From the IMG/VR virus record IMGVR_UViG_3300023180_005688, positions 1 to 35,033 of that record: DNA of 35,033 nucleotides. The stretch is one strand, 5' to 3'. The notes under the pieces are model-generated. The model made no database searches, was not told the DNA's origin, and saw only the letters and a program-made list of their open reading frames with translations. Positions 9,636 through 29,300 of the stretch are shown here, one piece after another (position 1 is the first letter of the stretch; every line of letters begins with the position of its first letter). The position numbers were made by a program, and so were the translations under genes. Source of the stretch: a virus.

Positions 9636-9642
9636 TTAAATA
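9636..9642 (+). promoter_or_regulatory. T4-type late promoter element for the radical SAM island
   Basis: TTAAATA on the plus strand lies 8 bases before the ATG at 9651 and matches the TAAATA core seen before other genes here. The leader would be only a few bases long, with no Shine-Dalgarno. It is divergent to the sigma70 promoter at 9595-9623. Confidence 0.55.
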
Positions 9643-9650: not shown

Positions 9651-10634
9651 ATGAATGATTTTACAAACATACCTTACCAAAATATTGTAAAGTTTGGACA
9701 AAAAAGTATGCTTAATCGTCCATTGTTCAACGTAAGTTGGATACTAGGAAGATTTTGCAATTACAAATGTAGTTACTGTTGGCCGTATGCCAACACGGAT
9801 AAACCTGACTATTATGATCTTGAACTGTACAAAAACACTATCAATGAAATAAAATCACAAGCAAGGCAGAATGGATTTACAGAATTTCATTTTAGTTTTA
9901 GTGGAGGTGAGCCAACTGCATACAAGCAGTTCGGTGAATTGGTTGAACATTATGCTAATGACAACAAAGCCGAATATCAAAGCATACATTTAACAACTAA
10001 TCTAAGTCCGGGAAGTAAATGGTGGAGTAAGTTTATTGATGCAACTAGTCATCTAACAAGAAGAAGTATTACTGCAAGTTATCATTCTGAGTTCGCTAAA
10101 GAACAAGAGTTTGGCGACAAGTGTTTGCAACTTATGTCAGGAAATGTTTTTGTAACAATTAACCAAGTAATGGTGCCTGAAAGATTTGATGAATATTATG
10201 AACGCTGTCAACGGTTTGCGGAACGTGGAATAAATGTTACACTAAAACCACAAAGTGATCCAACCGCTAGTTTTATTGTCGATGGGTATACCAAAGAGCA
10301 AATTGATATACTACAAAAAGGTTTCCCGCAGCAAATAAATGGTGAAGAATTGTTAAATGTAGAGATGCATGACGATAAAGGTAAGATTTACTTTTTGGAT
10401 CAAGCAGAACGTTTTAATGCTTTTGGATTTAATAAATTCAAAGATTGGTCATGCACAGCAGGGTATCAAAGCTGCGTTATAAGGGGTGGTGAAATAAAAA
10501 GAGCATATAGTTGTAGCGAAGCCCCTTTAGGTACGCTACAAGACGGTTTTACGCTGTTTAAGACGCCTTTTAAATGCGTTACTGATACTTGTGTTAGTTC
10601 AGCAGACAGCAAATTACCAAAGGAACGAGTATGA
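9651..10634 (+). CDS. Radical SAM protein 1 with C-terminal Cys-rich domain
   Basis: The CxxxCxxC [4Fe-4S] motif is CNYKCSYC (Cys36, Cys40, Cys43), followed by FSGGEPT near residue 85, the SAM-contacting element. The C-terminal part carries several Cys (SCTAGYQSC, YSCSE, FKCVTDTC), as expected for an auxiliary iron-sulphur cluster domain of the SPASM/twitch type. Such enzymes generate a 5'-deoxyadenosyl radical and often modify peptides or proteins. It is the first gene of the plus-strand island, behind a late promoter element, and overlaps the next gene as ATGA. The substrate is unknown. Confidence 0.9.
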   Translation: MNDFTNIPYQNIVKFGQKSMLNRPLFNVSWILGRFCNYKCSYCWPYANTDKPDYYDLELYKNTINEIKSQARQNGFTEFHFSFSGGEPTAYKQFGELVEHYANDNKAEYQSIHLTTNLSPGSKWWSKFIDATSHLTRRSITASYHSEFAKEQEFGDKCLQLMSGNVFVTINQVMVPERFDEYYERCQRFAERGINVTLKPQSDPTASFIVDGYTKEQIDILQKGFPQQINGEELLNVEMHDDKGKIYFLDQAERFNAFGFNKFKDWSCTAGYQSCVIRGGEIKRAYSCSEAPLGTLQDGFTLFKTPFKCVTDTCVSSADSKLPKERV

Positions 10635-11242
10635 AAGAAGTTTTGCTAGACAAAATTACAAATTGGACACAAGAGTCAGCAGATGCGTTCTATGATTATA
10701 AATTGGTAAACTGTGGTGAATCTAAAAAATATATTTGGCAAGAAGACAGCCAAGGTATGTTCCTTGTAAAAGATACTGCGGCATTTTATTTTAATACCAA
10801 TGGTACAATTTACAAAATAACAAAATGGTCTGATGATCAAGAATGGAAAAACTTTCAAGAACTTTTTGAAAACAATACAGACTTATTGCTAGAAAAACCG
10901 ATACACTTTGAAAAAATAAATGATGAGTTTAATTACACAGTTGTTGAACGTCCTGGTGGAACACTAGGAACAACATTTTTTGAATTGTTTTTATCAGAGA
11001 AAATTGATAATGACATAATAAACAAATTTATTGATAGTGTTAGTTTGCTTATTTCACGTATGCCAGAAACCTGTCCGTTACCACCAAAGCCAGTTTTAAT
11101 AAACAATAATATTTGTTGGACGGATTTCAAATATTGGAAATATACAAAACAAGAATTTATTCAACATTTCTCTGCAATGCTAGAACGTATTAGTGATAGC
11201 AAAACACTTTTAAACAAGGCTAAAGAACAATGGACTATATAA
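10631..11242 (+). CDS. Unknown protein of the radical SAM island (203 aa)
   Basis: AAAGGAACGAG precedes the ATG, which overlaps the upstream stop by 4 bases, so it is coupled to radical SAM protein 1. The order of elements (a Lys in TIYKITKW, an acidic helix, a hinge-like FNYTVVERPGG, then VLINNNICWTDF) faintly recalls the protein-kinase/aminoglycoside-phosphotransferase fold with a degenerate C-lobe. That is a weak inference and the HxD catalytic loop is absent. It may be a partner or substrate-recognition protein for the radical SAM enzyme. Confidence 0.75.
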   Translation: MKEVLLDKITNWTQESADAFYDYKLVNCGESKKYIWQEDSQGMFLVKDTAAFYFNTNGTIYKITKWSDDQEWKNFQELFENNTDLLLEKPIHFEKINDEFNYTVVERPGGTLGTTFFELFLSEKIDNDIINKFIDSVSLLISRMPETCPLPPKPVLINNNICWTDFKYWKYTKQEFIQHFSAMLERISDSKTLLNKAKEQWTI

Positions 11243-11427
11243 TTTATAGAATGTTCAAAGATAACAAACTGCACTATGAAGGTAAGTGTCCTTTATTTTT
11301 GTTTTTTGGTATTGCACCTTTGGAGCCCATTGATGCTAACGATGTTTATGATTATATGGAAATAGAGTACAAAGGTAAAACTATAACCTATAATAAAGAA
11401 ACATTTGATCAGGTTTGGAAATTTTAA
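11230..11427 (+). CDS. Small hypothetical protein (65 aa)
   Basis: The product starts MDYIIYRMFKDNKLHYEGKC and ends FDQVWKF. It is a small alpha-beta protein with one Cys and no recognised motif. It overlaps the previous gene by 13 bases, and its stop overlaps the aminotransferase-like start as TAATG. Its small size and position between enzymes would fit a precursor or adaptor role, but there is no leader-core pattern to support a peptide precursor. Confidence 0.6.
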   Translation: MDYIIYRMFKDNKLHYEGKCPLFLFFGIAPLEPIDANDVYDYMEIEYKGKTITYNKETFDQVWKF

Positions 11428-12203
11428 TGATTAATCTATCTCAAAATGTTTGTTATGATAAAAATCTAAATTTTAGTTTAGATTACAATTCTTATGGTAT
11501 GCATAGTAAGTGCTTAGAAATTTTAAAAAATCACTATGACTGTGAGGATATTGATATAGGATATGGAATCAGTGAACTAACCTCAAGAATAATGTTTTTT
11601 ATTAAACAACAAGGACTAAGTTTAACAATATGCAACAACGCATGGAGCGGCTTTCAAGAAATAAAAGAAGCCATGGAGATACCAACAGGTGAAGATATAT
11701 TTTACCTAGTCAATCCCAACGGCATTGACGGAACACAGTTATTGAAAGAAGAAGTAATAGAACTATCTAAAAAATACAGATATCTTATTGTAGATGAAGC
11801 GTATGGTGACTTTTTTGATAATTCAATTATTGAATGCCGTACAGATAATATGATTGTTCTAAAGACAATGTCAAAAAGTATAGCAAGTCCAGGTGCAAGA
11901 TTTGGTTGGTGTTTTGCTCCTAAGGAAGTTATCAAAATAACATCTAGAATTAGACCAAGAAGTTCAGTAGTTGGCGGAATGGAATTACAATTAAAATTGA
12001 TGTTAGATGAAATACCTAACCATGTAACTCGTATGCTTGAAACTAGAAATTTCTTAGAGAAAAATTATAACTGCACTAAATCTTATGGAAATTATGTGTT
12101 GTTCAATGAGCCTAACAAGTATACAGATAAATTTATTTGTAAGAAAATAGATAACTGTTATAGAATGGCATTAGTAGATATGGAAACATTAAATGAATTC
12201 TAA
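11427..12203 (+). CDS. Short class I/II aminotransferase-like protein (HisC-like)
   Basis: The 258-aa protein has the PLP-enzyme landmarks of histidinol-phosphate-type aminotransferases: NPNG (96-99), VDEAY with Asp123, and KTMSKSIASPGARFGW with Lys150 as the likely Schiff-base lysine. It is about 100 residues shorter than a typical HisC. The N-terminal arm and much of the small domain are missing or reduced, so substrate choice or activity may be unusual. The ATG at 11427 overlaps the upstream stop (TAATG); an upstream TTG is less likely. It sits between small unknown genes and a radical SAM gene, suggesting a shared pathway. Confidence 0.8.
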   Translation: MINLSQNVCYDKNLNFSLDYNSYGMHSKCLEILKNHYDCEDIDIGYGISELTSRIMFFIKQQGLSLTICNNAWSGFQEIKEAMEIPTGEDIFYLVNPNGIDGTQLLKEEVIELSKKYRYLIVDEAYGDFFDNSIIECRTDNMIVLKTMSKSIASPGARFGWCFAPKEVIKITSRIRPRSSVVGGMELQLKLMLDEIPNHVTRMLETRNFLEKNYNCTKSYGNYVLFNEPNKYTDKFICKKIDNCYRMALVDMETLNEF

Positions 12204-13014
12204 TGAACTTAGACAGATACAATCCGAAGGTGCAGTAGACTTATTAACAACTCTTCGAACTGTTGAAATAAATGCTGTTGACATTTGTAATCGTTCCTGT
12301 GAGTTTTGCCCGCAAAGTCAAGGATACAAACCTAAGAAAGGTTTTTTTAATTTAGATCTTATTCGTAAGATTTCAAATGATCTTAATGATATAAATTACA
12401 ATGGTAGAATTTCTTTCACTGGTTTTGGTGAACCGTTACTGTACAAAAATTTGACAGAAGCTATGTCAATTATAAAGAATACTGTAACAAATCTTAAATG
12501 GTTAGAAATAGTTACAAATGCAGATTATTTGGATAGAGAAAAAGCACTAGAACTAGATAGTGCAGGTTGTACCAATGTAACCGTTAGTATGTATGACGGA
12601 GACATATCTTCTAATATATTAGAATATTTTGATAACACTGATATTCAATTGACATTCAAACATCAGTATGATGGGTTCATGGTAGTTAATAGAAACGAAA
12701 TAGTAGCCAAAGAACAGGATTTAGATATTACACGATCTTGCTATTTGCCTTTTTATAAAATGATGATCGATATAGACGGTCATGTGTTAGTCTGTGCAAA
12801 TGATTGGGCACGTTCGGGTATTGTTGGAAATGTCTGTAATGATAGTATTAAAGACATTTGGATCGGTGAACCTTTAAATTTTTATAGACAACAATTAGAA
12901 AATGGGAAAAGAAAAAACTGTACTCCTTGTAAGTTTTGTGATATCAAAGGAACAATACACGGTATTGACAGTGTGTTAGCCTGGAATGCCCATTATAAAA
13001 ATAAGGTAAGTTAA
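12193..13014 (+). CDS. Radical SAM protein 2 with SPASM domain
   Basis: The cluster motif is CNRSCEFC (Cys32, Cys36, Cys39), with FTGFGEP in the GGEP position. The C-terminal region has a SPASM-type pattern: CYLPFYKMMIDIDGHVLVCA, then GNVCNDSIKDIW and a final CTPCKFC. SPASM enzymes use auxiliary clusters to modify peptides or to make sactipeptide-like, quinone or other links. The length of 273 aa is compact. Its ATG lies inside the end of the aminotransferase gene, so the two are co-translated. Confidence 0.9.
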   Translation: MNSNELRQIQSEGAVDLLTTLRTVEINAVDICNRSCEFCPQSQGYKPKKGFFNLDLIRKISNDLNDINYNGRISFTGFGEPLLYKNLTEAMSIIKNTVTNLKWLEIVTNADYLDREKALELDSAGCTNVTVSMYDGDISSNILEYFDNTDIQLTFKHQYDGFMVVNRNEIVAKEQDLDITRSCYLPFYKMMIDIDGHVLVCANDWARSGIVGNVCNDSIKDIWIGEPLNFYRQQLENGKRKNCTPCKFCDIKGTIHGIDSVLAWNAHYKNKVS

Positions 13015-13017
13015 ATA
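13011..13017 (+). promoter_or_regulatory. Late promoter element before the desaturase
   Basis: TTAAATA overlaps the stop of radical SAM gene 2 and lies 7 bases before the ATG at 13025. There is no Shine-Dalgarno in this short space, as at other TAAATA sites in the window. Confidence 0.5.
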
Positions 13018-13024
13018 CTACGTT

Positions 13025-13822
13025 ATGTATTTGTCATGGAACTTTAGAATTAAAGCTATTCAAGCCTTGTGTTTTATTGGTGGACCACTCGTTCTAATTT
13101 TCAATTGGAACCCTTGGTACTTCATTGGAGCATGGCTTTGGTATTGGTTTGCAGGACATATGGGAGTAAGTGTAGGATTACACAGATGCTTTTCTCATAG
13201 ATCTTGGGAGCCTAGAAATAAAATTATTGCAGCAGTTGTACATTTCTTTGCTGTTATAAGTGTAGTTGGTTCAAGCATTACTTGGACAGGAACACACAGG
13301 TTACATCATAAATTTGTAGATACTGCTAAAGATCCTCATAATGTTGAAGACAAAGATCTTTGGACTAGAATTAAGTATTGGTTCAATTACTGGCCTAGTC
13401 ATAGAGTTGAGGTTAATGTTGTAAAAGATCTATTAGTAGATCCTATGCACAAATGGTTTCATAGAAACTATTTTTATATTTTATTTGGATGGATGGCGTT
13501 GTTAGCACTAATTAGCGTTGACCTATTTTTGTACGGTTTTGTTGTTAGCACTATGCTAACACTGCACACAATTAGTTGGATCACAGTTGGTGCTCACATT
13601 TTTGGCAAAGACGAACATAATGTTGACAGCTCAAAGAATACATGGCTTATGGGAACATATATGTGGGGAGAAGGTTGGCATAACAATCATCACACTAAGC
13701 CATGGTCATATGAATTTGGGTGGAACAACAAACAACCGGACATTGGTAAATGGGTAATTAAATTATTAGCAAAACCAGAAAGTTTACATTCTGCTTCTGC
13801 ACTTAAACCAGGTACAAATTAA
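13025..13822 (+). CDS. Membrane fatty acid desaturase (acyl-lipid/acyl-CoA delta-9 type)
   Basis: Three histidine boxes bind the di-iron centre: HRCFSH (53-58), HRLHH (91-95) and HNNHH (219-223). Hydrophobic spans at about 12-52, 70-88 and 150-195 give the usual four-helix membrane layout. The enzyme introduces a double bond in membrane fatty acids. Relatives are known as auxiliary metabolic genes in marine phages. In this place it is flanked by radical SAM genes and starts right after a late promoter element, so it is probably expressed late. It may adjust membrane fluidity or act on a lipid part of the island product. Confidence 0.92.
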   Translation: MYLSWNFRIKAIQALCFIGGPLVLIFNWNPWYFIGAWLWYWFAGHMGVSVGLHRCFSHRSWEPRNKIIAAVVHFFAVISVVGSSITWTGTHRLHHKFVDTAKDPHNVEDKDLWTRIKYWFNYWPSHRVEVNVVKDLLVDPMHKWFHRNYFYILFGWMALLALISVDLFLYGFVVSTMLTLHTISWITVGAHIFGKDEHNVDSSKNTWLMGTYMWGEGWHNNHHTKPWSYEFGWNNKQPDIGKWVIKLLAKPESLHSASALKPGTN

Positions 13823-13823
13823 A

Positions 13824-15218
13824 ATGCAAGAAAGAGTAAAAAAATACATCGAAGAATTAAAAGAAAAAACAGGAACTAAAACCTTTTGTGTTTTGCCTTG
13901 GATTCATGTTGCGACCAGACCTAATGGTGATGCTAGGTTATGCTGCGGTTCAAACGCCAGCCAAGCAACCAAGGGTGTAATGGATGCAGGAAATATTAAA
14001 AAAGAAAATGGTTTACCTGCGAACTTCGGTAAAGAAAATTTATATAGTGCATTTAATAACGAGTATATGCGAAACGTTAGAAACACAATGCTGTCAGGAG
14101 ATATTCCTGCTAGTTGTGCTAAGTGTTTTGAAGAAGAAGGCAATGGAATGATTAGTAAGCGACTCTGGGAAACTTATTTCTGGGAGAAAGCAGAAAACAT
14201 TGACATTGCAAATCTAGTTACTGAAACTGAAGAAGATGGTACTATTCCTGTTAATGTTCCTTATCTAGATTTAAGGTTAGGACATACTTGTAATCTTAAG
14301 TGTGTAATGTGTACTCCTAACGATAGTTCACGTTGGATGCAAGATTATGATAAACTAATTGCATCTACAAATAACCCAACTATTCGACAACAAGTAAATT
14401 TTGACAAGAAAGCATTTAATAACACATGGTACGAAAGACCTGAGTTATGGGATGAAATATTTGAACAGATTCCAAATATGCGTCAGCTTTACTTTGCAGG
14501 CGGTGAGCCTTTAATGATCAAAGAGCATCGTAGACTATTAGAAGAAGTAGTTAAAAGAGGTTACGCAGATCAAATTACTCTAAGATATAATTCTAACGGA
14601 ACACTTGTTGAAGACTGGGTATTGGATTTATGGAAACATTTCAAACTAGTTAAGTTTGGTTTTAGTATTGATGCCACAGAAGATAGAAACAACTATATTA
14701 GATTTCCAACACAATGGCAAACTATTGTAGATACACTACATAGACTAGACAACACTCCTGATAACATTATTTGTAGTATTGCTTGTGCTGTACAAATTTT
14801 TAATATTTTCCATGTAACAGAATTTGCTAAATGGGTAATAGGACAGAAGTTTAAGAAAATTAATAAAAGTGTGTTCGACGATGTCGAAACAGGTGGCGGG
14901 ATTATTAGTATGCACCTGTTATATATTCCAACATTCTTAAGTGCTAGATTACTTCCTAAAGAAGATAAAGTTAAACTAAGAGAACATTTTATGGAATTTA
15001 AACAATGGCTTTGGGATAACTATCGACAAGATGATGATTTCTGGGAAAAGAATCCTAATGGTTGGAAACGTTGGGAAGGAATACTAAGTTTCGTTGAAGC
15101 AGAGGATCATAGTCATTTAATACCAACATTCAAAGAATATGTCAATAGACTAGATTCAATCAGAGGAATGGATGCTAAAAAAGTTTTCCCTGAACTAGTT
15201 CATCTATTGTCAGAATGA
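13824..15218 (+). CDS. Radical SAM protein 3 with N-terminal twitch domain
   Basis: The 464-aa protein has an N-terminal Cys-rich twitch-like region (FCVLPWIH with Cys22, LCCGSN at 40-41, CAKC at 98-101), followed by the radical SAM core CNLKCVMC (Cys156, Cys160, Cys163) and AGGEPL. This reversed order (auxiliary domain first) is known from twitch-domain radical SAM proteins found in phages and marine bacteria. The C-terminal 150 residues are helical and Trp-rich. It starts one base after the desaturase stop and overlaps radical SAM gene 4 as ATGA. The target is unknown. Confidence 0.92.
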   Translation: MQERVKKYIEELKEKTGTKTFCVLPWIHVATRPNGDARLCCGSNASQATKGVMDAGNIKKENGLPANFGKENLYSAFNNEYMRNVRNTMLSGDIPASCAKCFEEEGNGMISKRLWETYFWEKAENIDIANLVTETEEDGTIPVNVPYLDLRLGHTCNLKCVMCTPNDSSRWMQDYDKLIASTNNPTIRQQVNFDKKAFNNTWYERPELWDEIFEQIPNMRQLYFAGGEPLMIKEHRRLLEEVVKRGYADQITLRYNSNGTLVEDWVLDLWKHFKLVKFGFSIDATEDRNNYIRFPTQWQTIVDTLHRLDNTPDNIICSIACAVQIFNIFHVTEFAKWVIGQKFKKINKSVFDDVETGGGIISMHLLYIPTFLSARLLPKEDKVKLREHFMEFKQWLWDNYRQDDDFWEKNPNGWKRWEGILSFVEAEDHSHLIPTFKEYVNRLDSIRGMDAKKVFPELVHLLSE

Positions 15219-16192
15219 AATTTTCAAAAATAATCACAGACTATAAAGATAATTTAGATGTTGAGCTTATGCTTAGTAACGTCTGTAATTACAAATGTAC
15301 CTATTGCTTTCCAGGTTCGAATGAAGGTGACCTTCGCTGGCCTGATAAAAACTATGATACTGTTGTAGGTAACATAAAAGAACTGTTTCGCTTCTATCAA
15401 AAATATCACAATAAGAAAAAATTTCATGTAAAGGTTATGGGCGGCGAACCTACGGTATGGTCAAAACTTCCAGAATTTATTGCTGATATAAAAAGTATGT
15501 CAGACTCATTTGTGCGTATGTCTACAAATGCCAGCAGAACTATGCGCTATTGGAAACAACATTCTGATAAGTTTGATCAAATTATGATTTCAGTACATAA
15601 TCAATTTGCTGATATGGATCATATTATCGAAGTTGCTAATCATATATATAGCACAGGAAAAACTAATTTGTATGTTGGTGTGTTAATGGATCCTGACAAT
15701 TGGGAGTTATCAGTTAACAATTTTGAATATCTAATGGCCAACAGCAAAGAATGGCACCTAGCAGTTGCACCTGTTCATTTTGATGGACTCACTAGGTATA
15801 CTCAAGAACAGTTAATATACCTAAACAACGCACCGAAAAGAAAACATAAACAGCCTATTGATTTTTACACAGGACTAACTGCTCCTTTGTTTTTAGATCA
15901 CAATGGTAATAAAGTTGATACTGATCAACATAAAATAATAGTAAACAAAGAGAATCAATTCAAAGGTTATAGATGCAATATTGGGTTAGACAGAATATTC
16001 GTTTATGGTAATGGAGAAATAAAAGGATCTTGTGGTCAAAAGTTTTTTCCTAATAACTTAAATTTGTATTCAAATAATTTTATTGATAACTTGATAACGG
16101 AGCCACTGAGTCCTAGTATTTGTGAACAAACAGCTTGTTCGTGTAGTTCAGAGGTTGTACTGACAAAGGTAAAAGAAGTTTATGAAAATTGA
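15215..16192 (+). CDS. Radical SAM protein 4
   Basis: The motif CNYKCTYC (Cys24, Cys28, Cys31) and VMGGEPT (74-80) define the radical SAM core. The C-terminal third holds further Cys residues (YRCNIGLDRIF, GSCGQKF, ICEQTACSCSS) that could hold an auxiliary cluster. It resembles radical SAM protein 1 in length (325 versus 327 aa) and layout, so the two may be paralogues. Translational coupling to the genes on both sides (ATGA upstream, 11-base overlap downstream) argues for a joint function with the twitch enzyme and the methyltransferase. Confidence 0.9.
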   Translation: MKFSKIITDYKDNLDVELMLSNVCNYKCTYCFPGSNEGDLRWPDKNYDTVVGNIKELFRFYQKYHNKKKFHVKVMGGEPTVWSKLPEFIADIKSMSDSFVRMSTNASRTMRYWKQHSDKFDQIMISVHNQFADMDHIIEVANHIYSTGKTNLYVGVLMDPDNWELSVNNFEYLMANSKEWHLAVAPVHFDGLTRYTQEQLIYLNNAPKRKHKQPIDFYTGLTAPLFLDHNGNKVDTDQHKIIVNKENQFKGYRCNIGLDRIFVYGNGEIKGSCGQKFFPNNLNLYSNNFIDNLITEPLSPSICEQTACSCSSEVVLTKVKEVYEN

Positions 16193-16781
16193 ACTAGAAG
16201 ATGTGATGTTCTGGATGGATGCTATTCGTAATAGCGAAGACAGGTATCGTACACTTGAAAGTTTCTGGAAAGGACAGTTACGAAGTAAAGCATGGTTAGT
16301 TCAAGAACTAGAAGAGTCGGCATTACCTAGTAAAAATAAAATCGTAATACACGGAGGATGGAATGGTGTACTTGCTAGTTTGTTGTTTAATAGTAACATA
16401 AACATAGATCATATTACATCTATAGATATTGATCCTGAATGTGAAAAGATAGCAAATACTATAAACAAACGACAAGAGATAGAAGGAAGGTTTAAAGCAG
16501 TAACAGCAGATATGTGCGATTATATCTATGATGCTGATATTGTTATTAATACAAGTTGCGAACACATAACGCAGCAACAATATGAAGCATGGTTGAATAA
16601 TGTTCCTCAACTAGCAACAATTGTATTGCAAAGTAATAACTATTCAGAATTAGAAGAACATATTAGATGTGCATCTGGTATTGAAAATTTTACACATCAG
16701 TCACAAATTAAACCTTTTTATAGAGGAACTTTTCCTACAGAAAAATATGACCGTTATATGATAATAGGAAAAAAGAAATAA
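16182..16781 (+). CDS. Class I SAM-dependent methyltransferase-like protein
   Basis: Motif I is IVIHGGWNGVLASLL (residues 54-68) and motif II is SIDIDPECEKIA (80-91); the acidic residue that binds the SAM ribose is in IDID. VINTSCEHI occupies the motif IV position. At 199 aa it is a minimal Rossmann methyltransferase with an N-terminal helical cap. It is the last plus-strand gene before a convergent nitroreductase gene that ends on the very next base. The substrate is unknown; its coupling to radical SAM protein 4 suggests action on the same product. Confidence 0.85.
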   Translation: MKIELEDVMFWMDAIRNSEDRYRTLESFWKGQLRSKAWLVQELEESALPSKNKIVIHGGWNGVLASLLFNSNINIDHITSIDIDPECEKIANTINKRQEIEGRFKAVTADMCDYIYDADIVINTSCEHITQQQYEAWLNNVPQLATIVLQSNNYSELEEHIRCASGIENFTHQSQIKPFYRGTFPTEKYDRYMIIGKKK

Positions 16782-17387
16782 TTATTTCAGATAGGTAACT
16801 TTTATATCTTCTTTAGGTAAAGCAGGAAACATAAAAGATTCATCTACATGATGTATTCTACGATTTCTAGTTTCGTCTTTAAAACCAATTCCCATAATAA
16901 GCAATACATCATCTTTGAGCTCTAAAATTTTTCTTACTTCTTCGTTGTCAAAACAAGCACAGCACCCTGTATTATAACCGAGTATGGATGAAAGGAGATT
17001 AGTATACCCTGCTGCAACTCCAGCTGCCATTTGTTGGTCTCTGAGTAAAGAAGCATCAGTTGTTCCGCCAGAGCGTCTTAGTTCTTGATCTTCGCTATCG
17101 TGAGCACTGAACACTAACACAAGATTTGCCAAAACTTGGCTGTTGGTCATTTCACGACCTTTGTAAGAAAAGCCAGTTGTTGTTGAATAGATTTTTTCAA
17201 TAATATCTCTATTTGTAATTGCGTGTAAATTGTAAAAAGATACGTTTTGTTTACTAGGACAATTTGAAGCCGCATAAACAATTAAGTCAATATCGTCTTG
17301 TGGAATTTGTTTTGAAAGATCCCAATTTCGTTGACAGTGTTGGCTTCTTATAATTGCTTTTTTAATATCGTTGTGTTCAATAATCAT
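16782..17387 (-). CDS. Nitroreductase-family flavoprotein
   Basis: The protein (201 aa) shows the nitroreductase fold: the N-terminal FMN-phosphate segment RSQHCQRNWDLSKQIP, the NCPSKQN segment, and the C-terminal GIGF element before a final Arg-rich part. These enzymes use FMN and NAD(P)H to reduce nitro groups, quinones or dehydrogenate azolines in peptide natural products. The ATG at 17387 is preceded by GGAGATT; an upstream TTG is less likely. A late element GCTAAATA lies 28 bases before the start. It is on the opposite strand to its neighbours but inside the island. Confidence 0.85.
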   Translation of the reverse strand: MIIEHNDIKKAIIRSQHCQRNWDLSKQIPQDDIDLIVYAASNCPSKQNVSFYNLHAITNRDIIEKIYSTTTGFSYKGREMTNSQVLANLVLVFSAHDSEDQELRRSGGTTDASLLRDQQMAAGVAAGYTNLLSSILGYNTGCCACFDNEEVRKILELKDDVLLIMGIGFKDETRNRRIHHVDESFMFPALPKEDIKVTYLK

Positions 17388-17414
17388 AGTAATCTCCAAT
17401 TCTTACAGTATACA

Positions 17415-17422
17415 TATTTAGC
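17415..17422 (-). promoter_or_regulatory. Late promoter element for the nitroreductase gene
   Basis: GCTAAATA on the minus strand lies 28 bases before the ATG at 17387, leaving room for a leader with GGAGATT. It sits back-to-back with a plus-strand element at 17426-17433. Confidence 0.55.
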
Positions 17423-17425
17423 GCA

Positions 17426-17433
17426 AATAAATA
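17426..17433 (+). promoter_or_regulatory. Late promoter element for radical SAM gene 5
   Basis: AATAAATA lies 6 bases before the ATG at 17440. The leader would be nearly absent. With the site at 17415-17422 it forms a compact divergent late promoter pair. Confidence 0.55.
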
Positions 17434-17439
17434 TCTTAG

Positions 17440-18522
17440 ATGTTTAAATTCAGCAATTTACAGTCATTACACATGGAATTAAGCACACGTTGCCAAGCAG
17501 CGTGTCCTATGTGCGGAAGAAATAATCATGGTGGATTACCTAATCCTAATCTACTGCTAGACGATATGAGTCTAGATCTGTTTAAAAAAATAGTAAACAA
17601 AGATGTTTTACAGCAAGTCGGACATTACTGTTTCTGCGGTAATTACGGTGATCCTATGATCAATAATGATTTGCCTGATATTTGTGAATATATTAAAAAC
17701 GGAAAAGCTGAAGCGCAGGTACACGTTCATACTAACGGTGGTGCAAGAACTCCTGATTGGTGGAGAAAACTAAGACACAGTCTACCAGAGAAGCATTGTG
17801 TTTTCTTTGCAATAGATGGATTAGAAGATACACATTCACTATATAGAATTAATACACAATACGAAAAAGTAATTGAGAACGCCAAAGCATTTATTGATGA
17901 AGGTGGAACAGCTGAATGGGTTTTTATTAAATTCAAACACAATTCACATCAAGTCGAAGAAGCGGAACGAAGAAGCAAAGAACTAGGCTTTACTAGATTT
18001 ACAATGAAGAACACTATTAGATTTACTGGTGAAGAAAAGTTCAGTGTTGTTAATAGCAAAGGAAATCATTTGTATTATTTAGAGCCGCCTGAAGACAATC
18101 AAGTAACTCCGATTTCTTTAGATACTATAGATGACTTTAGTAAAAACTATCATAGTTATTCAATTGACTGTTATGCAAAAAAACATAAAGAAGTCTACAT
18201 TGATGTTCATGGTAAACTATTTCCTTGTTGCTTCTTAGCACAAGGTCCTTACTTAAATCCTAATGATCGTCCTTTGATATCTAACCTTAAAGAAGATATT
18301 AAAAAACAACATCAATCTTTAGTTAATGATTTAGGTGGAGAAGATGGAATTGATCTAAGCAAACGTACACTAAAAGAAGCAGTGTCAGATGAAAGATTTC
18401 AAACTGTTTGGAAAAAATATTGGGGTGAAGATAAGTTATTGATGTGTGCTAAAACTTGCGGAAAGCATAACGTATCTAAACCTAAAGAACAAATTATTAA
18501 AAACGTTATTCATAAAGTTTAG
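17440..18522 (+). CDS. Radical SAM protein 5 with SPASM-type C terminus
   Basis: The cluster motif CQAACPMC (Cys18, Cys22, Cys25) is followed by FCGNYGDP in place of GGEP. The C-terminal domain has DCYAKKHKEVYIDVHGKLFP, then CCF and the late pair MCAKTCGKHN, a SPASM-like pattern. This architecture is common among radical SAM proteins of marine phages. It is transcribed by itself from a late element and ends convergently with the hydroxylase-like gene on the minus strand (4-base tail overlap). The substrate is unknown. Confidence 0.9.
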   Translation: MFKFSNLQSLHMELSTRCQAACPMCGRNNHGGLPNPNLLLDDMSLDLFKKIVNKDVLQQVGHYCFCGNYGDPMINNDLPDICEYIKNGKAEAQVHVHTNGGARTPDWWRKLRHSLPEKHCVFFAIDGLEDTHSLYRINTQYEKVIENAKAFIDEGGTAEWVFIKFKHNSHQVEEAERRSKELGFTRFTMKNTIRFTGEEKFSVVNSKGNHLYYLEPPEDNQVTPISLDTIDDFSKNYHSYSIDCYAKKHKEVYIDVHGKLFPCCFLAQGPYLNPNDRPLISNLKEDIKKQHQSLVNDLGGEDGIDLSKRTLKEAVSDERFQTVWKKYWGEDKLLMCAKTCGKHNVSKPKEQIIKNVIHKV

Positions 18523-19076
18523 CCTAAACAAATTACCAGGTGTATCCTTGGTTCTCTACTTCCGTTATATACAAAGTGTTCTCGTGTTGTATCTACTCTA
18601 TAAAAGAATCCGTCAGCAGGAAGATTATAACAAACAGCTCTATGTGGTCCTTCAACAGTTTCACCAAACAAACAATTCTTGTTTGTCTTAAGAACATAGT
18701 GATATCTGATCTCCATATCAGTATGTATTGTCAGTCCTTGCTTTTCAGGAAGTAACATATATCTCGCTCTACCTAATGTAAAGTTTTCTTCCTTCGCTAA
18801 TTTTTCAATTGCGCTTCGAGTATAATCCCCTAGTAGATCATTCCATTCAGTAAAGTCAGTTTCTTTCGCAACAGTTTGCATAAACAGACTTCCAACATTG
18901 TCTAGACACTGATCTTCTGCATTAGGTCTATGATTAAGTCCTATTTGATTTGATGAAAGAGTTTTCCCTTCGTACATTTTGCGAGGCCATCCAACCTGAT
19001 TTATAATTGCTTCCATGTCTGAAAGCATTTGATTTAGATCAGCGGTAACATTTGTTTTTTCAATAAAGTCTTTCAT
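18519..19076 (-). CDS. Aspartyl/asparaginyl hydroxylase-like Fe(II)/2OG enzyme A
   Basis: The metal motif HxD is IHTDMEIRYHYVL (His118, Asp120), the distal His is in REHFVYNGS (His167), and Arg177 in EPRIHLVI would bind 2-oxoglutarate. This is the cupin layout of the AspH family, which hydroxylates Asp or Asn side chains in proteins. At 185 aa it is a single catalytic domain. It is the last of four genes joined by ATGA overlaps from the PP-loop enzyme downward. A protein or peptide substrate is likely from the family but not shown. Confidence 0.8.
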   Translation of the reverse strand: MKDFIEKTNVTADLNQMLSDMEAIINQVGWPRKMYEGKTLSSNQIGLNHRPNAEDQCLDNVGSLFMQTVAKETDFTEWNDLLGDYTRSAIEKLAKEENFTLGRARYMLLPEKQGLTIHTDMEIRYHYVLKTNKNCLFGETVEGPHRAVCYNLPADGFFYRVDTTREHFVYNGSREPRIHLVICLG

Positions 19077-19795
19077 AATAACTGTTCTTTCAATATACTT
19101 AGTGCAGACGGCATTATAGATAAAAACAGTTGATACGCCACTCCTTCTTTAAGATATCCGTTGTGTACAATACTGGTATCTATAATATAAACAACACCTT
19201 CTTCAATATTTTCAAAAGGTGTTATTTCTTTAGTTTCTTTATTGTAGAAACCTACTTCAACATCACTGTTAGTAGTTGCCCATAATCGTAACCACGGACA
19301 AGGTATAACGTTGTCAATGTGAGGTGTGAATCCTGCTCCTCCTTGCCATTTTAAAATATTAGATCTACTCCAATGACCGTCAAATATCCTTAGACATTTT
19401 AATGATTCTAAATCCATAACTTCAGTAGGCGTTGTACAATCAGATTCTATTATAGGGTGTTCCTGATTTATACTGTTCCACTCATAAAGAGATCCGTTTA
19501 TAGGATCCTTATTGCCTTTTAATTTACCGTCTTGGTTTACAAGTGCTAGTCCGTATCTTGGTTGTTCAGAATTATGTTTGCCCCATTGTACGAACTCTGT
19601 TTGATATTTTTCTATTTCAGATACAAATTCAAATACATTAATCTTAAGTTTTGTTTTTGTTAAAGGTTGAGGATGCAATAGTTTATAATCATCTTCGTAA
19701 ACATAATCTTTTAACTGATTGAATTTCTTTTCAAGAGCAGGGGTACTTGTAAAAACTTTTAGCGTATCTTGTATAATTTTATCAGCGTCAATCAT
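19073..19795 (-). CDS. Aspartyl/asparaginyl hydroxylase-like Fe(II)/2OG enzyme B
   Basis: The core shows TPHIDNVIPCPWLRLWATTN with His159 and Asp161, then VVYIIDTSIVHNGYL with His211. The usual C-terminal 2-oxoglutarate Arg is not obvious (GVAYQLFLSI), so cosubstrate binding may differ. An N-terminal 130-residue extension of unknown fold distinguishes it from enzyme A. It is coupled by ATGA to both neighbours. Family membership is inferred from the HxD...H spacing and position. Confidence 0.7.
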   Translation of the reverse strand: MIDADKIIQDTLKVFTSTPALEKKFNQLKDYVYEDDYKLLHPQPLTKTKLKINVFEFVSEIEKYQTEFVQWGKHNSEQPRYGLALVNQDGKLKGNKDPINGSLYEWNSINQEHPIIESDCTTPTEVMDLESLKCLRIFDGHWSRSNILKWQGGAGFTPHIDNVIPCPWLRLWATTNSDVEVGFYNKETKEITPFENIEEGVVYIIDTSIVHNGYLKEGVAYQLFLSIMPSALSILKEQLL

Positions 19796-20250
19796 TTTTT
19801 ATATTTTAGTCTTTTTACAATATCTTCATAAGATTCGTTAAAGATGCTTATCTTAAATAGAACTCTTTCTACTGGACCGTTGGTTACAGAATGTAGAACT
19901 GATGTATTAAGTAATGCACTTCTGTAATAAAAATTTTCTCCTAGCACTGTTACTGGTGCTGGATCTTCACTTAATACAAAATTCAATGAGCAAGTGGTTG
20001 TGTTGTCTACGTGTTCAGGTAAATGCAGATTTGCACCAAGCCAATAGAACCTAGGTCTTCCATCAACTTCAAAGTCTTCTATAATGCTTTCTATATAAGG
20101 ACTAGTGTATTTGCTTATTCTCCAACCTGGAGAGCTTTTTCCAGGCCATCTATCATCTGTATAAGCTACAGCAGTTTTTTCTGCTTCCTTACAGTCGACC
20201 ATAATTTTTTCATAGTCTAACGGATAATCAATATGAATTAAGTTATTCAT
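19792..20250 (-). CDS. Aspartyl/asparaginyl hydroxylase-like Fe(II)/2OG enzyme C
   Basis: This compact 152-aa protein has LPEHVDNTTTCSLNFVL (His80, Asp82), LLNTSVLHSVTNGP (His120) and ERVLFKISI (Arg129), a complete HxD...H...R set. The spacing is close to enzyme A. It is coupled to the PP-loop enzyme gene and to enzyme B by ATGA overlaps. Three such enzymes in a row suggest stepwise hydroxylation of one substrate, or division of labour among several sites. Confidence 0.75.
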   Translation of the reverse strand: MNNLIHIDYPLDYEKIMVDCKEAEKTAVAYTDDRWPGKSSPGWRISKYTSPYIESIIEDFEVDGRPRFYWLGANLHLPEHVDNTTTCSLNFVLSEDPAPVTVLGENFYYRSALLNTSVLHSVTNGPVERVLFKISIFNESYEDIVKRLKYKK

Positions 20251-21380
20251 TGTATATCCTCTAACTTAACTTTGCCGTCAAATACTTCTGCTAGATTTAT
20301 ATAATAATCAAAGTTTTTACTTGGCGATATTAAGTTTAATAACCCAGGTCTGTTACGTCTTATTAATTCTTTACTGACACTGGCTTCTAGTAATTGACCT
20401 AGCATTGCTTCGTGTGATAAGTTAAGTATTGTGTCTAAAAGATCAATGTCATCTAATGGTGAGAAGAAAAATGTATTTCCGAGATGCCAATGTTGATAGT
20501 CAGTTCTAAATACATTTAGTAAAAATGTTTTAAGACTTTTTAGATCATTAAATTCATAATCTTTATATTGTTTATATGTTTGCAAACAACTAGGCTTAAG
20601 AATATGCTTACTCATATAATAGTCATTCTTACGACACAGATCTACTAAATCTATCTTATGGTGTTTAAGTATCAGAAAAGATTGCAAAGGATCTCTCAGC
20701 AACATTTCGTCGCCATGCCCACCTGTAAGTAACACACTCTTTTCTTTATAGTGTTGTACAGTTTGATATGCCCAGAATGTTTGTTGTAAGTATGTTCTAT
20801 GATGACAAAGGAAATGATCCATATCAGCGTGTTCGCCCGGAACCAATTCAAATGCAATATTGTTTTTAAGCAGATATGAAATTAGTAAAAGTGAGTCAAC
20901 ACCTGTGGGATAAACTTTAATTTTTCCTGCATTGAAATTTTTAATTTTCTCATCAATTTTTTTATCTAACAAATCAATAATTTCATCATCAGTTAAATTT
21001 AATTCTGTGTGTTCGATATCTTTAGATGGTATTACATTTATTTTGTCAGTTATAATAACTTTACCATCGACTACATTATCATTTTTATAGAGATTCGAAA
21101 CCCTATCTTCTTCTATAAACAAAGGAAATTTTTGTTTGTTTCCTGTAATGATTTCGATTTGATTGTCGTTGAAATTTAGTATGCAGAATGTACCAGCACT
21201 GTTTCTGTATTGAGCAACTTCGCTGATATGATTGATTTCTAAAAAACCGTGCGGGGTGATTCCTTTGTACAGGATGTTGTCGATACAAGACCACCCATTG
21301 TCATAATCAATGTAAAAATTATTCTTTTCTAAATGATTAGGAAATGTCTGATCTAACTTTTTTGAAATAGAAAAAAACAT
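20247..21380 (-). CDS. Asparagine-synthetase-like PP-loop ATPase (377 aa)
   Basis: KVYPTGVDSLLLISYLL (residues 155-171) corresponds to the SGGxDS pyrophosphate loop of asparagine synthetases, and LLTGGHGDEMLLRDP (217-231) to the GDGGDE segment. Residues 1-130 resemble the strand pattern of the AsnB N-terminal domain, but Cys2, the glutaminase nucleophile, is absent (the protein starts MFFS). It would therefore activate a carboxylate as an acyl-adenylate and use another amine, as in beta-lactam synthetase or lasso-peptide cyclase. It is the first gene of a four-gene coupled unit with three hydroxylase-like enzymes. The actual reaction is unknown. Confidence 0.75.
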   Translation of the reverse strand: MFFSISKKLDQTFPNHLEKNNFYIDYDNGWSCIDNILYKGITPHGFLEINHISEVAQYRNSAGTFCILNFNDNQIEIITGNKQKFPLFIEEDRVSNLYKNDNVVDGKVIITDKINVIPSKDIEHTELNLTDDEIIDLLDKKIDEKIKNFNAGKIKVYPTGVDSLLLISYLLKNNIAFELVPGEHADMDHFLCHHRTYLQQTFWAYQTVQHYKEKSVLLTGGHGDEMLLRDPLQSFLILKHHKIDLVDLCRKNDYYMSKHILKPSCLQTYKQYKDYEFNDLKSLKTFLLNVFRTDYQHWHLGNTFFFSPLDDIDLLDTILNLSHEAMLGQLLEASVSKELIRRNRPGLLNLISPSKNFDYYINLAEVFDGKVKLEDIQ

Positions 21381-21382: not shown

Positions 21383-21438
21383 ATCACTTCTCGCACTAAT
21401 ACTTATTTTAAAGTAAAGAGCGTTTAATTAGAAGTGAT
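21383..21438. repeat. 9-base inverted repeat around the tail fibre/PP-loop junction
   Basis: ATCACTTCT (21383-21391) and AGAAGTGAT (21430-21438) flank the 57-base space between the tail fibre stop and the PP-loop gene. On the minus strand the right arm also holds the AGAAGTGAT that precedes the ATG at 21380, so pairing could affect its ribosome binding site. Confidence 0.4.
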
Positions 21439-22775
21439 TAGTTTAGATCTACCCAACTGTATCCATTCCAGCCCTGGAATTTAGTTCCAGTTTGATTGAA
21501 AATAATCATTCCTTCTGCAGGAGTTGGAATAGCAGTATTACGTGCTGTATCGTTAGCATATACACCAGTTTGGAAAACTGGAGCAACAGTAGTACCATCT
21601 GCTTTAACCTGTAAGTATCTTCCGTTTACAGCATCTAGATTATTAATACTACCTAAGTAAATATCTGTGTCGAGGTTAGCATCGCCTGGAGTAATTGATG
21701 CATCATTAATAGCAAAGAACAAACCACCTGCATCAGCATAATCAGATCCATTCCAACCTCTAGTACTGATCTGTCCAACAATGTCACCATCTGCCATAAT
21801 TGTTTTTGCAGCGTAGGTTCCGTTATGTGCTTCAAATCTAAGTGTTGGATATGCAGCAGATCCAATATCTGTATCAGATTGAATCGTTAATGAGTTTGCC
21901 TGAAGTTCTAAACTTTCAAACAATGGATCGATAATACTTACAACGTTGTCAGCAAATCTAAGAACTCCGTTCTGTATTGCTCCTGTGATACCATCAACTA
22001 ATAATGATGAATCGTCTCCAAATACAGATCCTGTAATATCACCTACAAATGTTCCTGTTAAAGTATTTGTGCTTGAGTTAACAATAATAGTACTATCATC
22101 GCCAACAATGTCAACGTTAAGTGATTGTCCTGCGCCAGCACCACCAATAGGTCCACCGTCAATAGTTGAACCAGCTGGTAAGTTAACTCCGCCTGATGAG
22201 TTCTGACTAATAAGTGCAGAACCTAAGTGAATAGTTGAGCCGCTTAAGAAAAGATCTTTAAATCTTGCACCCGCACTACCAATATCATATGCTTCGTTGC
22301 TGTCAGGAATTACGTCTGAATTGATAGTTCCGTTTAGATTTATTTTGCCATCTACTGCATCAACCATAATAGTTGAATCATCTGCTACAATTGAGCCTTT
22401 AAAGTTGCCTGTGATTGCATCAGCTGTTACGCTTCCTGTGATACTAATGTTGCCAGTTCCAGTAATATCATAACCGTTCATACTTACGTTTTGACGTAAT
22501 TGATCGAGTTCAACAGTAGCGTTTATCTGTCCTGCTGCATCGTTGTATAAAAAACTAATTCCGTTGTGTGTGCTTGATTGAAAAACAGCACCAATTGTAT
22601 CTTGTGCATCTTCTGCATTAAAACCCGTAACGGGTACTAAATCTCTTGCAAGTGTAGCGCCGTCGCCGATGTATAGCTTTTGGTCATCCGTGATCCAAAC
22701 AAGCTCGCCGTCTTGCGGGGGTGCTGCAAGAACTAGACGTTCAGCGTTCGTGCCTCTTCTAATCTGTAGTGACAT
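21438..22775 (-). CDS. Tail fibre / virion protein with Mtd-type N terminus
   Basis: The N terminus LQIRRGTNAERLVLAAPPQD, then GELVWITDDQKLYIGDG, is the conserved trimer-forming segment of phage tail fibres related to the major tropism determinant (Mtd) of Bordetella phages. The middle consists of Gly/Ser/Asp-rich beta repeats; a DDSTIMVD-like unit occurs three times (about residues 133, 226 and 258). The C terminus (EGMIIFNQTGTKFQGWNGYS) is a typical fibre tip. It probably acts in receptor binding. A late element CATAAATA and CCAGGAG precede the ATG. Its position between oxygenases and the enzyme island is notable. Confidence 0.85.
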   Translation of the reverse strand: MSLQIRRGTNAERLVLAAPPQDGELVWITDDQKLYIGDGATLARDLVPVTGFNAEDAQDTIGAVFQSSTHNGISFLYNDAAGQINATVELDQLRQNVSMNGYDITGTGNISITGSVTADAITGNFKGSIVADDSTIMVDAVDGKINLNGTINSDVIPDSNEAYDIGSAGARFKDLFLSGSTIHLGSALISQNSSGGVNLPAGSTIDGGPIGGAGAGQSLNVDIVGDDSTIIVNSSTNTLTGTFVGDITGSVFGDDSSLLVDGITGAIQNGVLRFADNVVSIIDPLFESLELQANSLTIQSDTDIGSAAYPTLRFEAHNGTYAAKTIMADGDIVGQISTRGWNGSDYADAGGLFFAINDASITPGDANLDTDIYLGSINNLDAVNGRYLQVKADGTTVAPVFQTGVYANDTARNTAIPTPAEGMIIFNQTGTKFQGWNGYSWVDLN

Positions 22776-22849: not shown

Positions 22850-23416
22850 TTAGGACAAAACGTCAACGTCTGCGGCTATAATGTACCTATATTTCTCGCT
22901 TTGAGGAATGCCCGGACGGTGCCAAAGCGAACTTGGATATACTAACCAACTAAAATTAGCAGGTTTTACAAAGAATTTACCTTCGTTTTCAGGACCGTTA
23001 GGAGCAAATTCTGTTCCACAAGTACTTAAATCATGCACATCATCAGGTATATGCAAGTACCAAATACCGCTCATAGATAACGGTGTTGGCTTGTGCTGAT
23101 GATTATGCCATAGGTTGCTTCTTTCTTCAGCAGTTTTAGAACTTGTCATAAAACTCCAAGCCTGCATATTACCTACTTTTACTTCTTTTCCGAAATACAT
23201 GAAAACACTAAAAAGAAAACTCATTCTAAATTTTAACCATACTTCTTCTGGTCTAGCAAACAAGTTTTCTTTAGTTTGATATTTAGGACTATTTTCCCAG
23301 TAATTTCCTGAATCAATTATATTTGTAATAATTTCAATCGCACTATTAGAATCTTGTTCTGTTATTAAAGAACTAAAATCATATTTTTTAATAGTATCCG
23401 ATTGTTCTATTATCAT
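22850..23416 (-). CDS. 2OG-Fe(II) oxygenase-like protein (188 aa)
   Basis: NLWHNHQHKPTPLSMSGIWY (His104 to His108 region) supplies the proximal metal residues. VYPSSLWHRPG holds the distal His166, and KYRYIIAADV the 2-oxoglutarate Arg177. This is the pattern of phage proline-4-hydroxylase-like 2OG oxygenases of the TIGR02466 type. Its ATG overlaps the preceding stop (TAATG) behind GTGGAG. It lies directly upstream of the tail fibre gene in the same orientation, so modification of the fibre is one hypothesis. Its substrate is not known. Confidence 0.75.
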   Translation of the reverse strand: MIIEQSDTIKKYDFSSLITEQDSNSAIEIITNIIDSGNYWENSPKYQTKENLFARPEEVWLKFRMSFLFSVFMYFGKEVKVGNMQAWSFMTSSKTAEERSNLWHNHQHKPTPLSMSGIWYLHIPDDVHDLSTCGTEFAPNGPENEGKFFVKPANFSWLVYPSSLWHRPGIPQSEKYRYIIAADVDVLS

Positions 23417-24157: not shown

Positions 24158-24231
24158 TGGAGCGGATGAGGGGAATCGAACCCCTAGCATCAGCTTGGAA
24201 GGCTGAGGTATTACCACTATACGACATCCGC
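24158..24231 (-). tRNA. tRNA-Gly (UCC)
   Basis: Acceptor GCGGATG pairs with CATCCGC, and the CCA is encoded. The anticodon arm is TCAGC CTTCCAA GCTGA, giving anticodon TCC. The T arm is GGGG TTCGATT CCCC. It reads GGA and, with modification, other glycine codons. It lies between two coding genes of the rpoZ transcript. Confidence 0.95.
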
Positions 24232-24234
24232 AAA

Positions 24235-24945
24235 TTATTCAACAATATTTTCCTTTATCTTCTTTAATATAATACTTCTCATTCTTGATTCTTTAAATCT
24301 TTTATATCTATCTGCTAATGGAACCCATGGTTCCCAACTAGTACTAGTTGAACAGGCTACTGAATATCTTCTAAGTTCAGCATCCATCTTGAACCGTGTT
24401 AATTTAATTTGTTCATCAGTATCGAAAGTAAAGTATACTAAAGGTTCGTCTTTTTCTATAGAAAGTTCTTTAACTCCAGGCAATAACATAAATTCAATGT
24501 TAACCGCTCTGAACCATTTACCAATATCATATCTGCCTGGAACTACTGTAGCATATTTCATATAACCAGGAACTTCAAACCAAGGACTGGTCATTGTTGC
24601 TGTTATAGGATGATCGCAAAACAGAATAGGTGTTAGACTATATTCTAATAGAAATCTATCTTTTATGTTTGCAGGCCTAACTACATTAGCAGCCATACCT
24701 GTTTTAATTTCAGATCTAAATTTACCTTCGTTATCAAAAGTATATTTGCTCGATAACGGATTTTTAAATTCTATTGTATTTTTAGTTAAGTTTTTAAAAG
24801 CAGGACAGTAAAACATACTGTCAAATTTATCTATATCAGTTTTATTTTTTATCTGCTTGTCAAAGAGATTAGTGGGCTCTGCATAGAGCATATTCCAGTC
24901 TATGTCACTAGCTTCATAGTTAGGAGCCCAAAAAACTTCAATCAT
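24235..24945 (-). CDS. Conserved marine phage protein (236 aa), EVFWAPNYE family
   Basis: The N terminus IEVFWAPNYEASDIDWNMLY and the segment FYCPAFKNLTKNTIEFKNPL are shared by a phage family that I recognise but whose function is unknown. The fold seems beta-rich with a helical basic C terminus (YKRFKESRMRSIILKKIKEN). It follows the 188-aa gene after 4 bases in the rpoZ unit; AAGGAATC lies about 10 bases before the ATG. A structural or assembly role is possible but not shown. Confidence 0.8.
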   Translation of the reverse strand: MIEVFWAPNYEASDIDWNMLYAEPTNLFDKQIKNKTDIDKFDSMFYCPAFKNLTKNTIEFKNPLSSKYTFDNEGKFRSEIKTGMAANVVRPANIKDRFLLEYSLTPILFCDHPITATMTSPWFEVPGYMKYATVVPGRYDIGKWFRAVNIEFMLLPGVKELSIEKDEPLVYFTFDTDEQIKLTRFKMDAELRRYSVACSTSTSWEPWVPLADRYKRFKESRMRSIILKKIKENIVE

Positions 24946-24949
24946 TGAA

Positions 24950-26058: not shown

Positions 26059-26064
26059 AAAACT

Positions 26065-26093
26065 AATATAGCATTATTAAACGGATTTGTCAA
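26065..26093 (-). promoter_or_regulatory. Sigma70-type promoter for the rpoZ unit
   Basis: TTGACA (26088-26093) and TATATT (26065-26070) are 17 bases apart on the minus strand, partly within the end of the upstream oxygenase gene. The predicted start is near 26058. Confidence 0.75.
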
Positions 26094-27305: not shown

Positions 27306-27310
27306 GGAAA

Positions 27311-27318
27311 TATTTATA
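27311..27318 (-). promoter_or_regulatory. Perfect T4-type late element TATAAATA before an oxygenase gene
   Basis: TATAAATA on the minus strand ends 5 bases before the ATG at 27305 and touches the dnaK terminator hairpin. With T4 spacing, transcription would begin at or inside the start codon. Confidence 0.55.
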
Positions 27319-27342: not shown

Positions 27343-27349
27343 TTGTGAT

Positions 27350-29297: not shown

Positions 29298-29300
29298 TAT

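Follow-up and report, generated by a model that had tools for sequence, protein, structure and literature searches.

What does a marine phage make with five radical S-adenosylmethionine (SAM) proteins encoded next to its fibre gene? We examined this question for the IMG/VR virus record IMGVR_UViG_3300023180_005688, a fragment of 35,033 nt (hereafter the window), in which positions 9651-21380 form an island of enzyme genes (g1 to g14, Table 1) bordered by the fibre gene g15. A preliminary description of the DNA letters had read the island as a late-expressed pathway of thirteen genes. Three radical SAM genes (g1, g6 and g10) and the methyltransferase gene g8 form a conserved core, and the other island genes form an exchangeable shell. 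The core was also found in Bdellovibrionia, near glycosyltransferase-type genes, and it probably makes an unusual surface molecule.

Conserved core and exchangeable shell

The island holds 15 open reading frames (ORFs), including two that had been missed, at 10631-11242 (203 aa) and 11230-11427 (65 aa). The enzyme classes of the preliminary description, namely five radical SAM proteins, a desaturase, a methyltransferase, an aminotransferase-type pyridoxal phosphate (PLP) enzyme, a nitroreductase, a PP-loop protein and three hydroxylase-like proteins, were borne out by profiles, fold and motifs. The radical SAM proteins g1, g4, g6, g7 and g10 scored above the PF04055 cut-off (37.7-50.3 bits vs 29.5) and were the only five in the record; the CxxxCxxC cysteines were invariant in the g1 and g10 alignments. 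Protein g6 also matched NCBIfam NF033640, with 375.4 bits over residues 19-461 (cut-off 170). No NCBIfam equivalog cut-off was reached by the island radical SAM proteins. The desaturase g5 (PF00487), the PLP enzyme g3 (Aminotran_1_2), the nitroreductase g9 (PF00881) and g11 (Asp_Arg_Hydrox) likewise exceeded their Pfam cut-offs.

The assignment of g8, weak by sequence and without a match in a sequence search against the PDB, came from its predicted structure. The AF2 model (predicted local distance difference test, pLDDT, 93.5) showed a clear class I SAM methyltransferase fold, with a best Foldseek value of 3e-10. In VIA, NodS was aligned with a Z of 16.9 and a root-mean-square deviation (rmsd) of 3.0 over 172 residues, tied with others, and the top rows were all class I enzymes. 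Nicotianamine synthase, which uses SAM differently, stood in the top Foldseek row and was not supported as the identity of g8, as VIA put ordinary methyltransferases first and the rows were tied. By its fold, g8 belongs with the class I SAM methyltransferases, and methyl transfer is its predicted activity.

A search of IMG/VR with g1 gave 564 related stretches, from which 80 loci were fetched, leaving 38 phage groups after near-duplicate removal. Counts of the core rest on the 25 groups with enough flanking sequence. Genes g8 and g10 were each present in 24 of the 25 and g6 in 23; all four core genes occurred together in 23/25. Gene g7 recurred in many phages and formed a phage-only clade. Many relative loci carried seven to ten radical SAM genes inside 20 kb. 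The hydroxylases, desaturase and nitroreductase of the shell recurred in some relatives; g3, g4 and g14 were rare or unique, and g4 stood alone in the radical SAM tree. Phage relatives also had genes for UDP-glucose dehydrogenase, which adjoined the core in 9 groups, for a DegT aminotransferase and for AMP-ligase and PP-loop proteins. Among the cultured phages of INPHARED, no g1, g7, g14 or linked GT-A family (see below) was found, and g6 and g10 gave weak or partial matches only.

These results rule out one pathway of thirteen genes, since only four to five genes (the core, with g7 in many phages) are conserved together. The idea of a biosynthetic or modification pathway, as opposed to isolated genes, is supported. 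The check proposed earlier, whether related phages carry the genes separately with no shared context, did not refute the core; most accessory genes do fit separate carriage.

A bacterial counterpart in Bdellovibrionia

In a genome scan, relatives of g1 (~50% identity) came almost exclusively from metagenome-assembled genomes (MAGs) of Bdellovibrionales, Bacteriovoracaceae and Oligoflexia. Genes g10, g6 and g8 adjoin g1 in the bacterial loci, in the order g1-g10-g6-g8 in L117, L119 and L121. In the radical SAM trees, g1 and g10 of the window each shared a clade with Bdellovibrionia genes (support 1.0 and 0.994, respectively). Gene g1 was present in 15 of 144 genomes of the Bdellovibrionia class (~10%), and these 15 included all 13 genomes with a strong g6 match, 13 of the 14 with a strong g10 match and 13 of the 16 with a strong g8 match. 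The hypergeometric values for this co-inheritance, 1e-16 to 5e-14, overstate its significance, as the test treats genomes as independent and related genomes were included.

The Bdellovibrionia copies of the core are chromosomal, so the substrate of the core is unlikely to be a phage-only protein. In addition, the T4 capsid gene was absent from the seven Bdellovibrionia-type genomes tested. Four MAG loci labelled Rickettsiales, Chloroflexi and Gammaproteobacteria (L111, L118, L120 and L122) were rejected as bacterial carriers. They are probably misbinned T4-like phage contigs, because T4 Gp23 was present in the MAGs, on the same contig as the radical SAM genes in two of them (G017 and G021). 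In the g1 tree, one phage clade was nested in the Bdellovibrionia clade (joint-clade support 0.87), and therefore exchange between phages and these bacteria has happened.

Link to glycosyltransferases

A further family, of 223-320 aa, is a neighbour of the core in 8 groups of phages and 9 of bacteria. It had no match in Pfam, PHROGs or PDB by sequence and was placed by predicted structure only. The model (pLDDT 91.6) has a GT-A fold; Foldseek gave a probability of 1.00 with the fucosyltransferase WrtF and put glycosyltransferases on top, and VIA aligned B4GALNT1 (Z 11.5, rmsd 2.7, 135 residues). We assign the family to the GT-A glycosyltransferase fold, which nucleotidyltransferases share, and its activity is predicted. 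In Bdellovibrionia it occurred once or twice per genome, and in 8 of 12 carriers it was no more than 10 kb away from g1. Fusions of the family with a GT2 domain were seen in L116 and G012. Nine GT2 genes lay within 10 kb of g1 in Bdellovibrionia vs 1.5 expected, counts that are clustered within genomes and render the P value optimistic.

Elsewhere in the window, a CMP-sugar-type cytidylyltransferase gene (PF02348; 30185-30928, -) and a TylF/Methyltransf_24 methyltransferase gene (29364-30032, -) lie near a tRNA array and possibly belong to a sugar pathway.

Late promoters

The late-type element TAAATA is depleted in the window, with 23 copies against a mean of 60 in dinucleotide shuffles, and 100/100 shuffles had as many or more. 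Nevertheless, 11 of the 23 copies lay within 60 nt upstream of a gene start and in sense, positions that make up 3.5% of all; none of the same-letter permutations of TAAATA exceeded about 14% at such positions. The element precedes g1, g5, g9, g10 and the fibre gene g15, and the copy upstream of g1 is retained in diverged relatives. Its identity as a T4-type late promoter, drawn from the known T4 consensus, is well supported, the placement statistics being strong. The late expression suggested by the preliminary description is supported by these data. The placement of its elements was beyond chance, but three of its coordinates were 1-2 nt off (9637, 13012 and 17428 are correct; 17415 stands).

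Transcription runs in three blocks rather than as a single operon: 9651-16781 (+); 16782-17399 (-), with 17440-18522 (+) diverging from it; and 21380-18519 (-), which sits downstream of g15 and runs in the same direction. Overlaps of 1-13 bases occur between most neighbouring island genes.

Genomic location and known islands

The T4 major capsid protein was encoded in 6 of 17 long relatives examined, G154 among them. The G154 island runs from an Mtd_N-type fibre gene, a homologue of g15, to long fibre-like ORFs and structural ORFs of 4,000 aa; a g15 homologue also lies at the island edge in G156. The earlier proposal of an association with the fibre type is supported by these two of the long relatives examined. 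In pelagimyophages and cyanomyophages, a hypervariable host recognition cluster rich in glycosyltransferase and lipopolysaccharide-type genes lies between VrlC and the neck gene gp14 (PMC7029224). It combines tail fibres with a large hypervariable block, in which glycosyltransferases and radical SAM cassettes occur; the cassettes are mentioned there in passing, with no core pathway or bacterial counterpart defined. The location of our island probably matches a pelagimyophage-type host recognition cluster, on the basis of an Mtd_N fibre at one edge of the island in the window fragment and a G154 island in which VrlC was not formally identified.

The cultured Pelagibacter phage Mosig EXVC030M (MT647606; PMC7892664) has a comparable island at 54.7-74.6 kb, between tail fibres and VrlC. 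It encodes two Asp_Arg_Hydrox proteins, TauD, an aminotransferase, a fatty-acid desaturase, two nitroreductases, MoaA-like radical SAM proteins, DegT, a carbamoyltransferase and a methyltransferase, and includes homologues of g5, g8, g9, g10 and g12 at 24-29% identity. However, Mosig has no recognisable g1 or g6, its radical SAM proteins are shorter and highly diverged, and it carries sugar genes that are absent from the island of the window.

Several further genes were seen in relatives. One island encodes a tryptophan-halogenase family protein (L138:8894-10054; PF04820, 2.6e-72); marine phages are known to carry halogenases. The G156 island encodes a radical SAM protein with a weak B12-binding domain (L142:986-2479). 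In one phage lineage, Kelch-like beta-propeller proteins (weak Pfam match) are recurrent neighbours of the core (L063:17003-18872, L052:16455-18825). The cultured, jumbo-type Vibrio phage K566 (L143, OZ196521) has at least 4 annotated radical SAM genes in ~17 kb, distant from the core.

Possible function of the pathway

We tentatively favour, at a little short of an even chance, the view that the island as a whole is a late-expressed pathway in the host-recognition region of the phage, tailoring a glycan or a glycosylated surface molecule. The SPASM/twitch-type radical SAM proteins g1, g6 and g10, together with g8, would act as one pathway, as their observed co-inheritance suggests. The predicted chemistry consists of methylation and at least one modification by hydrogen abstraction, the substrate being a sugar or something else that a glycan carries. 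Glycosyltransferases may then assemble or attach the product, in keeping with the GT-A and GT2 linkage seen in Bdellovibrionia and some phages. The shell (hydroxylases, desaturase, PLP enzyme, nitroreductase and PP-loop protein), whose variability was observed, may make the decoration differ from strain to strain. Late in infection, the product would come to lie on the surface of the progeny virion or the infected cell and alter recognition by fibres or competing phages, a step suggested by the late promoters and the location. More doubtful is the fuller proposal that this is a new pathway of three radical SAM enzymes and a methyltransferase, coupled to GT-A glycosyltransferases, which makes a new modified surface glycan, has been exchanged between T4-like marine phages and Bdellovibrionia, and serves for late re-dressing of virions or cell surfaces.

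Also in favour of a glycan-tailoring pathway are the UDP-glucose dehydrogenase genes near the core in phages and a solved relative of g10. The best solved profile match of g10 was BlsE (PDB 7vob, 1.7e-5), a cytosylglucuronate decarboxylase that acts on a uronic-acid nucleoside. However, the alignment is limited to the radical SAM core and BlsE is tied with the archaeal lipid enzyme Tes. Several other points also weigh against a glycan-tailoring pathway. The island of the window has no glycosyltransferase, its nearest sugar gene being a CTP-transferase 9 kb off. The glycosyltransferase link in phages is patchy (8/38 groups), and the GT2 excess in Bdellovibrionia is subject to the clustering noted above. 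In several Bdellovibrionia loci the core lies among housekeeping genes. Furthermore, fold similarity gives no substrate.

The main rival, serious even if we consider it unlikely, is protein or peptide modification, in which the radical SAM proteins and hydroxylases cross-link, epimerise or hydroxylate the fibre, another virion protein or an unlinked precursor of a ribosomally synthesised and post-translationally modified peptide (RiPP). Peptides are common substrates of SPASM/twitch radical SAM, AspH-like and AsnB-like enzymes, and hydroxylases and AsnB-like proteins in general are typical of peptide modification. The best solved matches of g1, g6 and g7 were the anaerobic sulfatase-maturating enzyme (anSME, 4k36), SkfB (6efn), viperin and MoaA; the protein- or peptide-modifying anSME and SkfB were best for the g1 and g6 profiles, and all these likenesses are confined to parts of the radical SAM core. 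An Mtd_N-type fibre borders the island in the window, G154 and G156, and the fibre gene and g14-g11 run in one direction. However, the module side near g1 yielded no conserved small ORF; those that were conserved all lay on the opposite-strand phage backbone. It should be noted that RiPP precursors can be unlinked or hypervariable, and that the window has one 65-aa ORF, for which no relatives were detected. No PqqD-like recognition domain was detected by Pfam or in the best-scoring lists, and g1, g7 and g10 begin directly at the radical SAM core. The virion-protein modification put forward in the preliminary description is weakened as a role of the core, because its Bdellovibrionia copies are chromosomal, in genomes that lack T4 capsid genes and fibres, and lie beside glycosyltransferases.

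It is improbable, in our assessment, that the product, formed during infection, is a free lipid or specialised metabolite akin to an antibiotic, a signal or a cofactor, with the glycosyltransferases as unrelated neighbours. Desaturase, AMP-ligase, Trp-halogenase, acetyltransferase and B12-radical SAM genes in the islands of relatives would fit such a product, as would the lipid enzyme Tes as a tied nearest solved relative of g10. However, no carrier protein, polyketide or peptide synthetase or exporter was found among the recurrent families, and the host-recognition location also argues against it.

Highly improbable is a loose collection of horizontally acquired genes without a shared product (hypervariable noise), or a hoard of iron-sulfur (Fe-S) genes. 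Radical SAM genes of such phages have been placed under Fe-S metabolism: TARA_ERS488813_N000010, a T4-like environmental genome with 12 radical SAM genes and in this respect like the T4-like marine phage of the window, was read in terms of Fe-S cluster metabolism (PMC5332604). In addition, g2, g3, g4, g13 and g14 are seldom common to relatives. However, the strong co-inheritance of g1, g6, g8 and g10 in two unrelated settings refutes this explanation for the core, and it is possible for parts of the shell. We give hardly any weight to the idea that the bases of phage DNA are glycosylated and hypermodified as a defence against restriction. Hypermodification pathways of other phages do combine 2-oxoglutarate (2OG) oxygenases, PLP enzymes, radical SAM proteins and glycosyltransferases, but the idea is at odds with the late promoters, the place among virion genes, the same core on bacterial chromosomes and an island in which no base-hydroxymethylase was seen.

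Features of the island and neighbouring genes

The features of the island are listed in Table 1. Accessory gene g3 gave 8e-17 with TIGR01141, under the cut-off, and starts at the ATG at 11427. No family match was found for g2 in Pfam and other profile searches. Likewise, g12, g13 and g14 had no family match and rest on motifs and homologues; g14 had none in Pfam, NCBIfam or PDB. The motifs of asparagine-synthetase-like PP-loop enzymes are SGGxDS and SGxGxDE. A g14 homologue adjoins g1-g8 in L098 with the motifs TGGVDT and SGSNGDEM, and TGVDS of g14 is one glycine short of it.

Table 1 Genes and late-type promoter elements of the island and its edge.
Feature	Position	Strand	Description	Evidence
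TAAATA	9637..9642	+	Late-type element upstream of g1	
g1	9651..10634	+	Radical SAM, C-terminal twitch-like cysteines; core, most conserved anchor	PF04055 50.3 bits
g2	10631..11242	+	203-aa protein; accessory	One homologue in L082, 24.6%, 7e-11
65-aa ORF	11230..11427	+	Coupled to g2 and g3	No detectable relatives
g3	11427..12203	+	Short HisC/CobD-like fold-type I PLP enzyme, 258 aa; accessory	PF00155 (Aminotran_1_2) 8e-13
g4	12193..13014	+	Radical SAM/SPASM; window-specific	PF04055 and PF13186 above cut-off
TAAATA	13012..13017	+	Element upstream of g5	
g5	13025..13822	+	Fatty-acid-desaturase family; accessory, recurrent	PF00487 7e-10; homologues in L013, L094, L101, Mosig
g6	13824..15218	+	Radical SAM, N-terminal twitch domain; core	NF033640 (N_Twi_rSAM)
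g7	15215..16192	+	Radical SAM; near-core gene on phage side	PF04055; phage-only clade in tree
g8	16182..16781	+	Class I SAM-dependent methyltransferase fold; core	Predicted structure
g9	16782..17399	-	Nitroreductase family; accessory, recurrent	PF00881 3e-9; homologues in L018, L029, Mosig
TAAATA (two, divergent)	17415-17420; 17428-17433	-; +	Between g9 and g10	
g10	17440..18522	+	Radical SAM; core	PF04055
g11	18519..19076	-	Asp/Asn beta-hydroxylase-like; accessory, recurrent	PF05118 (Asp_Arg_Hydrox) 26.1 bits, cut-off 22.6
g12	19073..19795	-	Hydroxylase-like, HxD...H motif; accessory	Homologues near g1 in L036, L072, L076; Bdellovibrionia L121; Mosig AspH81
g13	19792..20250	-	Hydroxylase-like, HxD...H motif; accessory	38% to L013 ORF
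g14	20247..21380	-	PP-loop, AsnB-synthetase-like by motif only	TGVDS plus GGHGDEM
g15	21438..22775	-	Mtd_N-type fibre/tropism protein; island edge	PF18454 28.5 bits; TAAATA at 22816

Beyond the island, the window contains an ORF with an RNA polymerase Rpb6/omega-type domain (25491-25775, -; PF01192, 1.9e-12), unusual for a phage. An apparently full-length DnaK-like chaperone, by sequence reading (27350-29248, -), and a ClpP protease (31751-32317, -; PF00574) each have a TAAATA upstream. Oxygenases outside the island (26077-27305, 22850-23416 and 1862-3004) comprise two clear 2OG-FeII_Oxy_5 proteins, a weak one beside the fibre gene and one of the TauD family. Six tRNA genes, including Ile-TAT, Thr-TGT, Cys, Ser-ACT, Trp and Gly, lie on the minus strand at 24158-31424.

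Significance

Radical SAM cassettes in such islands were known in passing (PMC5332604, PMC7029224). Searches on Bdellovibrio and radical SAM, on the twitch radical SAM family in phages and on radical SAM clusters beyond these two papers gave nothing relevant. The defined core, its bacterial counterpart and the glycosyltransferase link were not found in the literature searched, which covered few subscription journals. The cassettes of marine T4-like phages had been noticed and never explained, and the four-gene core, shared by many uncultured marine phages and by chromosomes of Bdellovibrio relatives, turns a vague remark on auxiliary genes into a testable pathway. Experiments are possible with the cultured phage Mosig on Pelagibacter HTCC1062, whose island has the same enzyme classes. 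If the pathway does decorate surfaces, it would give phages that abound in the ocean a new means of controlling recognition and superinfection, and new radical SAM chemistry could be drawn from it.

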